This document shows positions 1,174-12,648 of a stretch of 64,000 nt of DNA, one piece after another. The stretch's first letter is position 1; the number at the start of each line of letters is the position of its first letter. Source of the DNA: an uncultured archaeon (GTDB lineage Archaea > Halobacteriota > Methanosarcinia > Methanosarcinales > Methanoperedenaceae); NCBI GenBank assembly GCA_902386255.1, contig CABMII010000161.1:1-64000 (forward strand), read 5' to 3'. The notes under the pieces were generated by a model. It worked only from the letters and a program-made list of their open reading frames with translations, did no database searches and had not been told where the DNA came from. The translations under genes were made by a program, and so were the position numbers.

Positions 1174-1260
1174 AAACAAAAGTTTAGGTGAATGTCAAAA
1201 ACGGATAGGTATAAAAGGAAAAGACAAAACGTATTTGTCTAAAACGGAAGGTTTGAATAC

Positions 1261-2220
1261 ATGCGTGTGAAATCATTTAACAAAATCATACTATCATTCA
1301 TAATTTTAGCAGGATTTTTCTTTTTTTTGGTCCCTGGTGCCACTGCTTCTGAAAATTCATGTATTGATTGCCATAAATCAGTAACCCCTTTTACTGAAGA
1401 GCAAAAGAGGTTCAACCAGATCAGAATCGAGCATCTTGAAAGACAAGTCACATGTTCTCTTGAATGCCACGAAGATAGAATAAGAAACCTAACTACTACA
1501 AATTATCAACAGTGGTCTGAATCTGTTCATGCTCTGAAAGGAGTTGCTTGCGATGCATGCCACGGGGGAGACCCAACGCAAGCTACCAAAGAGAAAGCAC
1601 ATGCAAACCTTAAGAACACCACAGACCCTGAAAGCCCTGTCTATTACACCAATGTTCCAAGTACCTGCGGTAAATGTCATCCTGAAGAGTTAGCTAATTT
1701 TGAGAACAGCACACATTACCATAAGCTTGAGGCATTGCAACTAGCTCCGACATGCACGACCTGCCATGTCCCTCATACATTTACAATCTTGAATCCTGAA
1801 GATTTCATAACTACCTGTGGGAACTGCCATTCGGTGTATAAGAAAATAGCGCCCTATGATATCCCGCTTAAGGCCGAAGATTTGCTGGGACAGGTAAATA
1901 AATTGAAATTCAATATTGACATGACAGGGCAGGATATTTTCTGGGCAAAAAAGAACGGAACCGATGTAACACAAGCACAGCAATATGCAGATAGTGCACT
2001 AAATAGACTTCAGAATCTTGCTCCCATGTGGCATGAATTCAATCTAACGCATTTTGAAGATGAATTGGATGCAGCCAACAAAGATATAAGGAAAGCCGAA
2101 ATGCTCGTTAAACCTACCGCAACTCCAACAAGCACACCACTTCCTAAGATGCCTGGGTTTATCGGATTGGCAGGGGTAATCACACTGCTATTAGTGTGGT
2201 ACTTGATAAGAAAAAAATAG
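1261..2220 (+). CDS. multiheme c-type cytochrome, PGF-CTERM-like surface anchor
   Basis: This 319-residue exported protein has an N-terminal hydrophobic signal (residues about 8-28, ending ATAS). It carries five CXXCH heme sites at residues 34, 97, 136, 165 and 186, plus a CX3CH site (CSLECH, residues 65-70). A helical, heme-free region follows, then a Thr/Pro linker. The last 23 residues hold MPGF, a hydrophobic stretch and a basic tail, which resembles the PGF-CTERM signal processed by archaeosortase ArtA. The protein is therefore probably fixed to the outer surface or S-layer. It opens an operon with a second cytochrome, a ferredoxin subunit and an NrfD subunit, so it likely receives electrons from the quinone pool. 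Whether CX3CH binds heme is uncertain. Confidence 0.85.
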   Translation: MRVKSFNKIILSFIILAGFFFFLVPGATASENSCIDCHKSVTPFTEEQKRFNQIRIEHLERQVTCSLECHEDRIRNLTTTNYQQWSESVHALKGVACDACHGGDPTQATKEKAHANLKNTTDPESPVYYTNVPSTCGKCHPEELANFENSTHYHKLEALQLAPTCTTCHVPHTFTILNPEDFITTCGNCHSVYKKIAPYDIPLKAEDLLGQVNKLKFNIDMTGQDIFWAKKNGTDVTQAQQYADSALNRLQNLAPMWHEFNLTHFEDELDAANKDIRKAEMLVKPTATPTSTPLPKMPGFIGLAGVITLLLVWYLIRKK

Positions 2221-2286
2221 GGATTAAAAGGGAATGATAAAAACGATTATGAATCCAGGAGACCCCCTGTTGATGGTGAGTAACTG

Positions 2287-2736
2287 ATGCAGCCGCATTT
2301 GAAGAAAGCATTTACCTTGCTGGCTCTTGCGATAATAGCATTTATCTTCGTAAGGTCACTTGTTGTTCCCTTATCTTTTGGACAATACGGATGGTACAGG
2401 GGAGACGCTCTCGGGGATATAAGAAATTTTCCAGTAGAATATGCCGGATCTGCAAGTTGCGGTGAAGAGAATTGTCACACAAACATTTATTCGGTGTGGA
2501 TTAATGGCAGTCATAAAACCGTAAACTGCGAAACATGCCATGGTCCTTCTGGAAAACATGTCAACAATATCAGGGAAATGCCCGGCCCTGTAAATGATTC
2601 AAGGGATTATTGCGGTATATGTCATTACAAACGTGTAGCAAGACCAACCACTTTTCCGCAGATAGACCCGGCTGTTCACGGCCAGGACATGCAGTGCACT
2701 TATTGTCACAACCCTCACAAGCCGTGGTTTGTATAA
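2287..2736 (+). CDS. membrane-anchored tetraheme-type c cytochrome
   Basis: This small protein (149 residues) has an uncleaved-looking N-terminal membrane helix (residues about 7-30). Three CXXCH sites follow (residues 81, 109 and 137), with an additional CX4CH site, CGEENCH, at residues 58-64. CX4CH is a known heme-attachment variant in some cytochromes c3. The paired histidines nearby (SHK, AVH, NPH) could be axial ligands. The gene lies 66 bases after the first cytochrome and overlaps the longest reading of the next ferredoxin gene. In context it resembles the small electron-carrier subunit of Nrf-type quinol-oxidising complexes, passing electrons from the NrfC/NrfD pair to outer cytochromes. 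That role is inferred. Confidence 0.8.
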   Translation: MQPHLKKAFTLLALAIIAFIFVRSLVVPLSFGQYGWYRGDALGDIRNFPVEYAGSASCGEENCHTNIYSVWINGSHKTVNCETCHGPSGKHVNNIREMPGPVNDSRDYCGICHYKRVARPTTFPQIDPAVHGQDMQCTYCHNPHKPWFV

Positions 2737-2749
2737 ACGGAGCATAAAG

Positions 2750-3520
2750 ATGGAAGTTACGAGACGCGAATTCACTAAAATCGGGTGCAAAGTAATAATA
2801 GGAGCAGCGGCGGGCTCGGCTGTTATCGAATCGGTTATAATAAGAGGCACAGGCGCGGAAAATTCCCCAGCAGATGAATATGACTGGAATGAGCATTACT
2901 GGGGTTATATTGTCGATACGCGTATATGCATAGGTTGCGGGAGATGCGCAAACGCCTGTAAACGTGAAAACGATGTTCCCTTCGATGAACCAGTTTACAG
3001 GACATGGGTTGAAAGGTACAGGACAAAACTGGATGGGGAGGTAGTGATAGATTCACCCAACGGAAGCATTGATGGTTTCCCTGATGATATCCCGCCTGAA
3101 GAAGTCAAAAAGGCTTTCTACGTTCCAAAAATTTGCAATCATTGCGATAATCCGCCCTGCGTCCAGGTTTGTCCTGTCGGGGCGACATTTGAAACAAAGG
3201 ACGGCGTTGTACTCGTGGATTATAAATACTGCATCGGATGCAGGTATTGTATTCAGGGCTGCCCTTATGGTGCCAGGTATTTTAACACTAAAAAAGGGAC
3301 TGCGGATAAATGTACATGGTGCTATCACAGGATTACAAAGGGTCTTTTGCCCGCATGTGTACAGGCATGTCCCACAGGGGCCAGAAAATTCGGAGACCTC
3401 AATGACCCTGACAGTATCGTCAATAAAATCCTGGATACAGAAAGAATCAATGTTCTTAAACCGGATCTCGGCACAAAACCCAAGGTTTACTATGTGGGAC
3501 TGGACAGGGAGGTGCGATAA
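2750..3520 (+). CDS. NrfC/DmsB-like four-cluster ferredoxin subunit with Tat signal
   Basis: The protein carries four cysteine groups typical of NrfC/HybA/DmsB electron-transfer subunits: CIGCGRCANAC, CNHCDNPPCVQVCP, CIGCRYCIQGCP and CTWC followed later by CVQACP. It therefore probably binds four [4Fe-4S] clusters. The ATG at 2750 was chosen over the one at 2729 because it places a twin-arginine motif, TRREFTKIG, right at the N-terminus, before a hydrophobic segment. The cluster-bearing domain is thus exported folded. The stop codon shares one base with the start of the NrfD gene (TAATG), indicating translational coupling and a stable complex. Confidence 0.88.
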   Translation: MEVTRREFTKIGCKVIIGAAAGSAVIESVIIRGTGAENSPADEYDWNEHYWGYIVDTRICIGCGRCANACKRENDVPFDEPVYRTWVERYRTKLDGEVVIDSPNGSIDGFPDDIPPEEVKKAFYVPKICNHCDNPPCVQVCPVGATFETKDGVVLVDYKYCIGCRYCIQGCPYGARYFNTKKGTADKCTWCYHRITKGLLPACVQACPTGARKFGDLNDPDSIVNKILDTERINVLKPDLGTKPKVYYVGLDREVR

Positions 3521-4689
3521 TGGAAAGCCTGATCTGGGGATATGTGTATCCCAACGAAGTTGAAATACAATGGAGCATACTGATTGTATTATATCCATAT
3601 ATCACGGGGCTTGTGGCGGGAGCGTTCATAGCATCGTCGCTATATCACGTTTTCGGTAAAAAGGAAGTAAAACCCGTAGCAAGATTCGCTCTTCTTACGG
3701 CACTATCCTTCCTTCTTGTTGCGACCATGCCTCTTCTCACGCACCTTGGACATCCGGAACGTGGCATTGAAATCATGTTTACGCCTCATGTAACCTCTGC
3801 AATGTCGGGATTCGGGTATATTTATTCATTTTATCTCATCGTTGTAGTGCTTGAGATATGGCTTTCTTTCAGGGAGGACATTGTCAAGAAAGCGCACAAC
3901 TCCAAAGGATGGCAAGAACTGATGTATTCGGCTCTGGCTTTATTCTCATATGATATATCGGAAAAAGCCCTTCATGAAGATGAGAAACTTGCAAAGAAAC
4001 TTGCAATAATAGGTATCCCGTCGGCTGCATTTCTTCACGGATATGTTGGTTTCATTTTCGGCGGCATTAAGGCAAATCCATGGTGGTCAACTCCCCTCAT
4101 GCCCCTCATATTCCTGATGTCTGCCATAGTATCCGGAATAGCGCTTTTGATCTTGCTGTATATCGCCTCCATGAAGATAAGAAAACACGCAATCGATCAC
4201 AAATGCCTTCATTCACTGGCGCATTACCTGTGGGTTTTCCTGATATTTGACGTGACGCTGGAAATGCTTGAGATTATCAGCATGAAATACGAATCGCTTG
4301 AGGAAATAGACATAATCAACAGGCTGCTCTCGGATAAAATCGCTACAACCTTTTACGGAGTGCAACTGACAATGGGCATCCTCATTCCATTCATGCTGCT
4401 CCTTCTGGTAGGTATCATCAAGAACCGTGAAACCCTCAAGATGATCATGATATCAATATCATCGGTTTTTGTCCTAATCGGCGTTTTCGCAATGCGATGG
4501 AACGTGGTCATTGGCGGGCAGGAAATCTCAAAGAGCCTTAGTGGAACACTTACATACGTACCGGTTTTCTTCAACCAGGAAGGAGTACTGCCAGCAATAA
4601 TAATATTGATAATCCCGTTTATAATCCTGAGAGTCGTCACCTATATCCTTCCTCCCTGGAAGGACATGGAAGAAGAAGCAGCCAGGTAA
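3520..4689 (+). CDS. NrfD/PsrC-like integral membrane quinone-interacting subunit
   Basis: This 389-residue polytopic protein begins in the manner of the family (PYITGLVAGAFIASSLYHVFG) and contains about nine or ten hydrophobic helices. NrfD/PsrC proteins exchange electrons between quinones and the attached ferredoxin subunit and usually carry no cofactor of their own. It is the last gene of the cytochrome-cytochrome-ferredoxin-NrfD operon. In a Methanoperedens-like archaeon the natural reading is menaquinol oxidation coupled to outward multiheme electron transfer, though the direction could be reversed. No catalytic molybdopterin subunit is present in the operon. Confidence 0.85.
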   Translation: MESLIWGYVYPNEVEIQWSILIVLYPYITGLVAGAFIASSLYHVFGKKEVKPVARFALLTALSFLLVATMPLLTHLGHPERGIEIMFTPHVTSAMSGFGYIYSFYLIVVVLEIWLSFREDIVKKAHNSKGWQELMYSALALFSYDISEKALHEDEKLAKKLAIIGIPSAAFLHGYVGFIFGGIKANPWWSTPLMPLIFLMSAIVSGIALLILLYIASMKIRKHAIDHKCLHSLAHYLWVFLIFDVTLEMLEIISMKYESLEEIDIINRLLSDKIATTFYGVQLTMGILIPFMLLLLVGIIKNRETLKMIMISISSVFVLIGVFAMRWNVVIGGQEISKSLSGTLTYVPVFFNQEGVLPAIIILIIPFIILRVVTYILPPWKDMEEEAAR

Positions 4690-10905: not shown

Positions 10906-11169
10906 TTAAGTATTGAGATGGCATACGAGTTCAGATTTACCCGCCCATGTAAAAAACTGCTTTAGCCTGACTTTGGAAATTTCAACTGTTCCGATTAGGC
11001 ATTCGTTATGTTTTTCCATAATGTAGTTATTCACATCGGTTCTATCCCACTTTTCAAGCGACTTAAGCCTATCGATGTTCTTTAAAAATTTACTATAACT
11101 CGCTATAGTTTTCTCTGCTGTGCCATTGACTTTAAGTTCCTGAAGGAATTTATCGATTAATTTGGCCAT
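10906..11169 (-). pseudogene. tyrosine recombinase fragment (N-terminal SAM-like DNA-binding domain only)
   Basis: The frame encodes MAKLIDKFLQELKVNGTA, then EKTIASYSKFLKNI, and ends FFTWAGKSELVCHL. This is the core-binding, SAM-like domain of phage integrase/XerC-type recombinases. The catalytic domain with R-H-R-Y residues is missing, and nothing like it is visible in the following 170 bases. The piece is therefore a truncated recombinase and a scar of a mobile element. An upstream ATG at 11223 would add a hydrophobic 18 residues that are probably not natural. The adjacent 10732-10905 stretch holds no gene I can support. Confidence 0.6.
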
Positions 11170-11438
11170 ATTCTCTAATATGTAAGTATCAAGCAATAAA
11201 GCCATTATCAAAAAAATTAACAAATCCCCATAATGTAGTTTTTTAAAATAAAAAATGATTTATAGGTATATTCTTACAAAATATTAATTTATATACAATT
11301 AAACACCAAAGTGTCTCTGATAAGCTATTAATACACAAAATTAATCTCTAAAATTATCGATTTATTTATAACAAAAGCCACATCTGAAAAACCATGTGAG
11401 AATATTTGTTAAGCGAGAAGAGTTGACAGAATGATAAC

Positions 11439-12648
11439 TCAATCATCACCGCCACCACCTCTCGCATTATTTGACGAATGGCATCGGCTTCCAGTGCATG
11501 TAGTCTCCATATATCGAACCGGATGACAGGTTACGCAAGAGAGCAGTCTCTCCACACGCCCGCCAATATGTTCACCAACCCTTTGATGCACAAAGTTTGC
11601 AGGCGTAAAACCATCAGGAGTATGGCATTGGGAGCAGTCGGTATCCATACCTGCGTGGGTTGAAGGCGGCTCGTGGCAATTTACACATCCTGCTGCAGTC
11701 CCCGTATAGACTCCATGATGGCACTGGTCGCATGTTAGAGACTGGTGTTGTCCTGTCAACGGGAATGTTGAATGGTCGAAAGTTGCAGGTGTCCAGCCTG
11801 CAGGAGAGTGGCATTTATCGCAGTCACTCACGATCCCTGCGATGTGATTTGCTGGCACTTTATGGCAATTTTCACACATCCTTGCGGTCCCGTTATAGAC
11901 TCCATGATGGCACTGGTCACATGTGAGAGACTGGTGTTTTCCTGTCAATGGGAATGTTGAATGGTCAAACGTTGCAGGCGTCCAGCCAGACATCGAGTGG
12001 CATTTATCACAGTTTCCCGAAATCCCCTGGATATGGTTGACAGGTACTTTGTGGCAGGATTCACAACTGGGGTTTATGCCGCTATATTTGTCTCCCGGGT
12101 GGCATTTATCACAGCTCAAATTTGCGTGCACGCCAATAAGCTTGAAATTTGTATGAGCTTTATGGCATAAGTCGCATTGTGTGGTTGTTATAATACGCGT
12201 CTGGCCCGACTGGTTATGGACGAGCCGGCTGTGGCAATCGGCACATAATACGGATTTGTCCATGTGCAAGGCATGTTTTGCCTCAATAGTCTTATCTGTG
12301 AGATTGCGGGTTTCAGGATGGCATGCAAGGCATTGTTCGTTTTTTACCCGCGTTACAATCTGGATAGGTACCTTATAATTGCCTGAAAAATGGGCAACGA
12401 TTTGCTCCGCTCCCCGCACATTCTCTTCAATAAAGCTTTGAAATCCGGGTTCTGAATGGCAATTAAGACATACCGCCTTTGTTGCATGCGTCGAATTTTG
12501 CCATGATTGGTAGTAAAAGTTCATTTCATGTCATGAATTACAAAACGCGGGCTGGGATTTCACTACCTGGAACCCAACACCCCCGACGATTATTATAATC
12601 GCCAGAATTACCAGTGAAGTTATTGAAATTGATTTTTTAAGCACCATG
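11439..12648 (-). pseudogene. large multiheme c cytochrome with disrupted NapC/NirT-like N-terminus
   Basis: The intact part (11439-12524) encodes 361 residues with 14 CXXCH sites and one CX4CH (CTGSRCH) near the end, but has no signal peptide. Reading further upstream recovers the missing start. An ATG at 12646-12648 gives MVLKKSISITSLVILA, then after one surplus base the other frame gives IIIIVGGVGFQVVKSQPAF, a typical signal anchor. The first heme motif then reads CNS-stop-H, with TGA at 12531-12533 where a Cys codon is expected, followed by EMNFYYQSWQNSTH as in NapC/NirT proteins. Two independent lesions sit within 125 bases. Without the N-terminus the protein could not be exported or loaded with heme, so I call a pseudogene; sequencing error is the alternative. 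Confidence 0.75.
11743..12015 (-). repeat. 189-bp (63-residue) tandem heme-domain repeat
   Basis: Within the large cytochrome the segment CDKCH..WTPATFDHSTFPLTG..HQSLTCDQCHHGVY recurs with an offset of 63 residues, each unit carrying three heme sites. A third, more divergent copy (CSQCH followed by GFTPANF) follows. The repeat is also clear in the DNA, for example GGGAATGTTGAATGGTC near 11761 and again near 11950. It shows growth of the cytochrome by internal duplication. Confidence 0.85.

Follow-up and report, generated by a model that had tools for sequence, protein, structure and literature searches.

A TGA codon in place of a heme cysteine in a NapC/NirT-type multiheme cytochrome gene of an ANME-2d-like archaeon looks like recent gene breakage or an assembly error

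Does a TGA codon at the position of a heme-binding cysteine mark a broken cytochrome gene, a wrong base in an assembly, or a stop codon that is read as an amino acid? Such a codon lies in the window (the whole 64,000-nucleotide stretch of archaeal DNA analysed here), within a multiheme c-type cytochrome gene on the minus strand (11439..12647). One frame of this gene runs over 402 codons from an ATG at 12647 to a final TGA stop (11441-11439), and its sole break is an in-frame TGA at 12533-12531 (TCA at 12531-12533 on the plus strand). The 38 codons that precede the break (12534..12647, minus strand) encode MVLKKSISITSLVILAIIIIVGGVGFQVVKSQPAFCNS, which we read, from the frame, the Pfam PF03264 match and the orthologs, as an N-terminal signal anchor followed by the first half of heme motif 1 (FCNS). 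The motif, the first of the protein and directly behind the anchor, appears as CNS-stop-HEM, with the stop in the second Cys position and HEMNFYYQSW directly after it. The next in-frame ATG (12524, three codons past the TGA) opens a remainder of 361 residues without signal anchor (11439..12524, minus strand), which is intact and carries 14 CXXCH motifs and one CX4CH; read through, the protein has 402 residues with 15 CXXCH (the broken one counted) and the one CX4CH. Sequence comparison also revealed two tandem 189-nt modules in the gene (11655..12032, minus strand; 63 residues and three hemes each, 78% identical).

A preliminary description of the locus had reported the TGA in place of a Cys codon and the intact remainder with 15 heme motifs, as found here, and had added a frameshift, with the start of the protein split over two frames by a surplus G near 12600. 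When all three frames were read, the frame of HEMNFYYQSW alone was open back to the ATG at 12647 and carried the whole gene, positions 12606-12598 read TCTGGCGAT within SLVILAI, and the DNA alignment with two orthologs was free of indels from that ATG to the stop codon, which rules out the frameshift. The damage thus comes down to one lesion in one codon rather than two: the stop codon stands and the frameshift falls. DNA similarity to the two orthologs begins at the ATG at 12647, with little similarity further upstream, and we therefore took this ATG as the start.

The NapC/NirT-type beginning that had been proposed for the gene was borne out, as residues 11-146 of the read-through protein matched NapC/NirT (PF03264) at 43.3 bits (cut-off 24.1); in the whole-genome search with PF03264 the gene scored 40.6 bits, with 1 TGA inside the match. 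A CXXCHxM first motif is a hallmark of NapC/NirT cytochromes, and the first heme of NapC/NrfH proteins lies at the quinol side. The window gene resembles these membrane-anchored cytochromes in its PF03264 match, its hydrophobic N-terminus and the CXXCHxM kind of first motif in its orthologs; in the window copy further CXXCH motifs follow, but the stop breaks motif 1, which is intact in both orthologs. It differs from them in its long C-terminal heme array (16 motifs with the broken one). By NCBIfam it is not NrfH, since it stayed below the cut-off of the equivalog TIGR03153 (72.1 bits vs 134.2). The C-terminal region exceeded the cut-offs of both Cytochrome_C7 (PF14522; 72.2 bits, cut-off 24.8) and Cytochrom_c3_2 (PF14537; 53.3 bits, cut-off 25) and is in this respect like cytochrome c7 / c3-like multiheme modules, except that here they are joined to a NapC/NirT-type start and their number differs between species. 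A PDB sequence search with the cytochrome matched no chain.

Among 30 other genomes of the genus (G001-G030), close homologs with 69-82% identity in aligned pieces were present in three (G018, G023 and G013), although several of the genus genomes are 63-87% complete and absence of the gene is thus not certain in all. Over all 99 genomes searched (own included), 39 (own included) gave some match, those beyond the close homologs at much lower identity. The G018 ortholog is a 468-codon open frame with CDSCH at the stop position, and the G023 ortholog a 350-codon open frame with CNSCH there; in both the Cys codon is TGC and the N-terminal anchor is present. The 189-nt module occurs in three copies in G018, two in the window gene and one in G023 (L063, L064), and the heme number therefore steps from 19 to 16 (broken motif counted) to 13. 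Thus the label "16-heme-type" given in the preliminary description fits the window copy and not its orthologs, and heme number shifts in threes via gain or loss of the 63-residue module.

The third homolog, in G013 (G013:C254, L065 9464-10042), is 5'-truncated: its frame of 193 codons starts only past the first heme motifs, and a tblastn search of 17.6 kb around it with the first 100 residues gave no significant match. This copy lacks its 5' part and therefore provides a precedent for loss of the cytochrome gene. The remnant sits behind unrelated sequence and adjoins a ferritin-like ORF (named by eye), and one of its motifs reads FAECH. The relatives search also showed a TAA inside the match of a distant relative, G019. 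Gene neighbours of the cytochrome differ between genomes: tblastn of the window ORFs against the three ortholog regions returned the cytochrome or ORFs overlapping it, bar one weak match at 33% identity. A search for further relatives yielded one locus only in genome contigs (L032, by length and translation the contig of G023 itself), none in viral contigs and two distant bacterial records (~29% identity) in plasmids. The best reading is that the cytochrome is accessory, sporadic in the genus and dispensable.

The selection estimates bear on the age of the lesion. The dN/dS of the window gene was 0.172 against G018 (399 codons) and 0.181 against G023 (337 codons), while that between G018 and G023 was 0.145. 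Branch omega in a three-way set of 336 columns was 0.253 for the window, 0.145 for G018 and 0.135 for G023; with bootstrap intervals, the window branch had 0.25 (0.13-0.60) vs 0.14 (0.10-0.20) for the others. The fraction of the window branch without constraint was estimated at 0.13 (-0.04 to 0.55), and the polarised changes, from which the TGA itself was left out, were 13 non-synonymous to 21 synonymous on the window branch and 34 to 61 on the other two together (Fisher p 0.84). Omega on the window branch is thus somewhat higher than elsewhere with a wide interval, and may still be compatible with about half of the branch being unconstrained. The constraint on the remainder predates the stop, as far as measurable. 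No relaxation or decay is detectable, and therefore the stop, if real, is young by this measure. This agrees with the earlier proposal of recent damage or wrong assembly, as intact orthologs exist and no excess of amino-acid changes was detected on the lineage.

The change from Cys to TGA looks like the ordinary breakage of a gene in the very recent past, or else like an assembly error, with no new reading of the code. We consider it probable that the stop is a real nonsense allele, namely a recent premature TGA in an accessory cytochrome of NapC/NirT type that is intact in all other respects; a premature stop beside intact orthologs, as found here, is what characterizes a pseudogene or nonsense allele. 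A single substitution would recently have made TGA from a Cys codon in the first heme motif of this ANME-2d-like archaeon, a name (ANME-2d, or Methanoperedens) that its gene content suggests. Of the 152 single changes that could create a stop in this Cys-rich gene, 32 turn Cys into TGA, more than fall to any other amino-acid class. Translation would then end after 38 residues and leave the membrane anchor alone. c-type cytochromes need export to the heme-loading side, and without a signal sequence there is no export; a product restarted at the next ATG, three codons downstream, would lack the signal anchor and could be neither exported nor loaded with heme. The allele would thus be null, in a gene of which the genus has only scattered copies. 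Real loss is plausible, given that other genomes of the genus lack the gene or have it in truncated form. A literature search on Methanoperedens cytochrome pseudogenes found no paper.

The main rival to a real nonsense allele is a consensus error or a minor-strain allele, in which most cells would carry an intact gene and the assembled base would be wrong or belong to a single strain. The assembly is a draft of 172 contigs in which one wrong base would look identical, only one codon separates the sequence from an open frame, and the rest of the gene is without detectable decay. Against this, the change is a substitution and no homopolymer slip, the gene is absent or truncated elsewhere in the genus, and inside stops are rare in this genome among the families tried: none in 41 Cytochrome_C7 and none in 48 Radical_SAM matches, one (TAA) in 44 ABC_tran matches, and one in seven NapC/NirT matches, which is the window cytochrome. 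The genome thus has some broken genes, though not many, and this is compatible with ordinary pseudogenes and with occasional consensus errors alike. We regard an error or minor-strain allele as possible but clearly less likely than a real nonsense allele; this weighting is a judgement and not a measurement. Two ABC transporter ATPase genes of the same genome (G000:C80:6402-6841 and G000:C67:8629-9034) look split between frames, one of them with a TAA inside, and look like other broken genes or assembly faults.

Far less probable is that translation restarts at ATG 12524 and yields a 361-residue remainder that is functional even though it has no anchor. The short distance of three codons from the TGA and a remainder that is open and constrained would suit such a restart, but no signal sequence lies at this ATG and hence there would be no export to the heme-loading side; moreover both orthologs have the anchor, and the constraint is, so far as it can be measured, older than the stop.

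The weakest reading holds that UGA is decoded here as Cys or selenocysteine, which would complete heme motif 1 and allow the protein to be made. The TGA does fall exactly at a heme Cys, in a frame constrained on both sides, and PMC1914089 describes a Geobacter c-type cytochrome with a conserved in-frame TGA, proposed to encode selenocysteine. According to that source, the Geobacter candidate is like the window gene in that a gene for a multiheme c-type cytochrome carries a TGA in frame, but its TGA is common to at least two species, while the window TGA is in one genome only, and its residue is outside the N-terminal cytochrome domain, while the window TGA replaces a heme Cys.

Several results argue against recoding: i) TGA is a normal stop here, being the commonest among 47 non-overlapping window ORFs of at least 150 aa (22 TGA, 20 TAA and 5 TAG) and the final stop of the cytochrome gene itself; ii) neither ortholog that covers the stop position (G018 and G023) has TGA there, both carrying TGC, so that the conservation of UGA among homologs that characterizes selenoproteins is missing; iii) among 117 NapC/NirT matches in 34 genomes the window gene alone has an inside stop; iv) a scan of the window and 108 loci (358,185 bases) for C..(TGA)H or (TGA)..CH, with another CXXCH required in that open frame, returned only the window site (which also turned up in L001 and L056) and a single unrelated match in L052; v) tRNA-Sec, SepSecS and PSTK were each over cut-off in none of 34 genomes (its own, 20 others of the genus and 13 of the order), compared with five, one and one, respectively, of 14 controls; and vi) no UCA anticodon was present among the 42 tRNA genes found, a set which is incomplete, as it has no tRNA called for Cys, Trp or Asn. 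ARAGORN assigned anticodons directly to 39 of the 42; the remaining three needed its intron mode, and their identities are uncertain. Between positions 11000 and 13000 of the window, no Rfam family exceeded its gathering score, and none of three sub-threshold matches was a SECIS element.

Weaker signals of a decoding system were followed as well. For PSTK, its own genome yielded a single weak match, at 36.1 bits against a cut-off of 290.5. Sub-threshold tRNA-Sec matches occurred in all 34 genomes and in all 14 controls; those checked at four loci of relatives (L033-L036) were tRNA-Ser or tRNA-Leu, and those of its own genome overlap called tRNA genes in at least C107 and C89 (tRNA-Ser). A DNA search with a loose UCA-anticodon pattern was uninformative, with 298 matches (143+155) against 78+71 in the reversed control; a match within the C40 tRNA proved to be in the intron part, the anticodon loop reading TTT by eye. 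Recoding is unlikely and largely refuted already, and we give scarcely any credence to it, or to its narrower form, in which UGA is read as Cys or selenocysteine at this one codon of the heme-attaching motif by a decoding system that is too divergent, or whose genes are too incompletely assembled, to be detected by the present searches.

The main value of the nonsense-allele analysis is a correction: automatic annotation would yield a 361-aa anchorless cytochrome, and neither the true start nor the stop would be visible.

Three further features of the window were observed. Next to the broken cytochrome, a 105-aa ORF (10906-11223) weakly matched the N-terminal SAM-like domain of phage integrases (22.1 bits, below the cut-off of 27); judged from sequence, it is a possible integrase fragment without the catalytic part. 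A cluster at 1243-4689 encodes a five-CXXCH protein, a three-CXXCH protein, a 4Fe-4S subunit and an NrfD-like membrane subunit, apparently an intact multiheme electron-transfer operon. Finally, the stretch from 28000 to 48300 is of lower G+C (0.34-0.40) and contains sugar aminotransferase, phosphomannomutase-type and glycosyltransferase genes, which make it a probable surface polysaccharide region.
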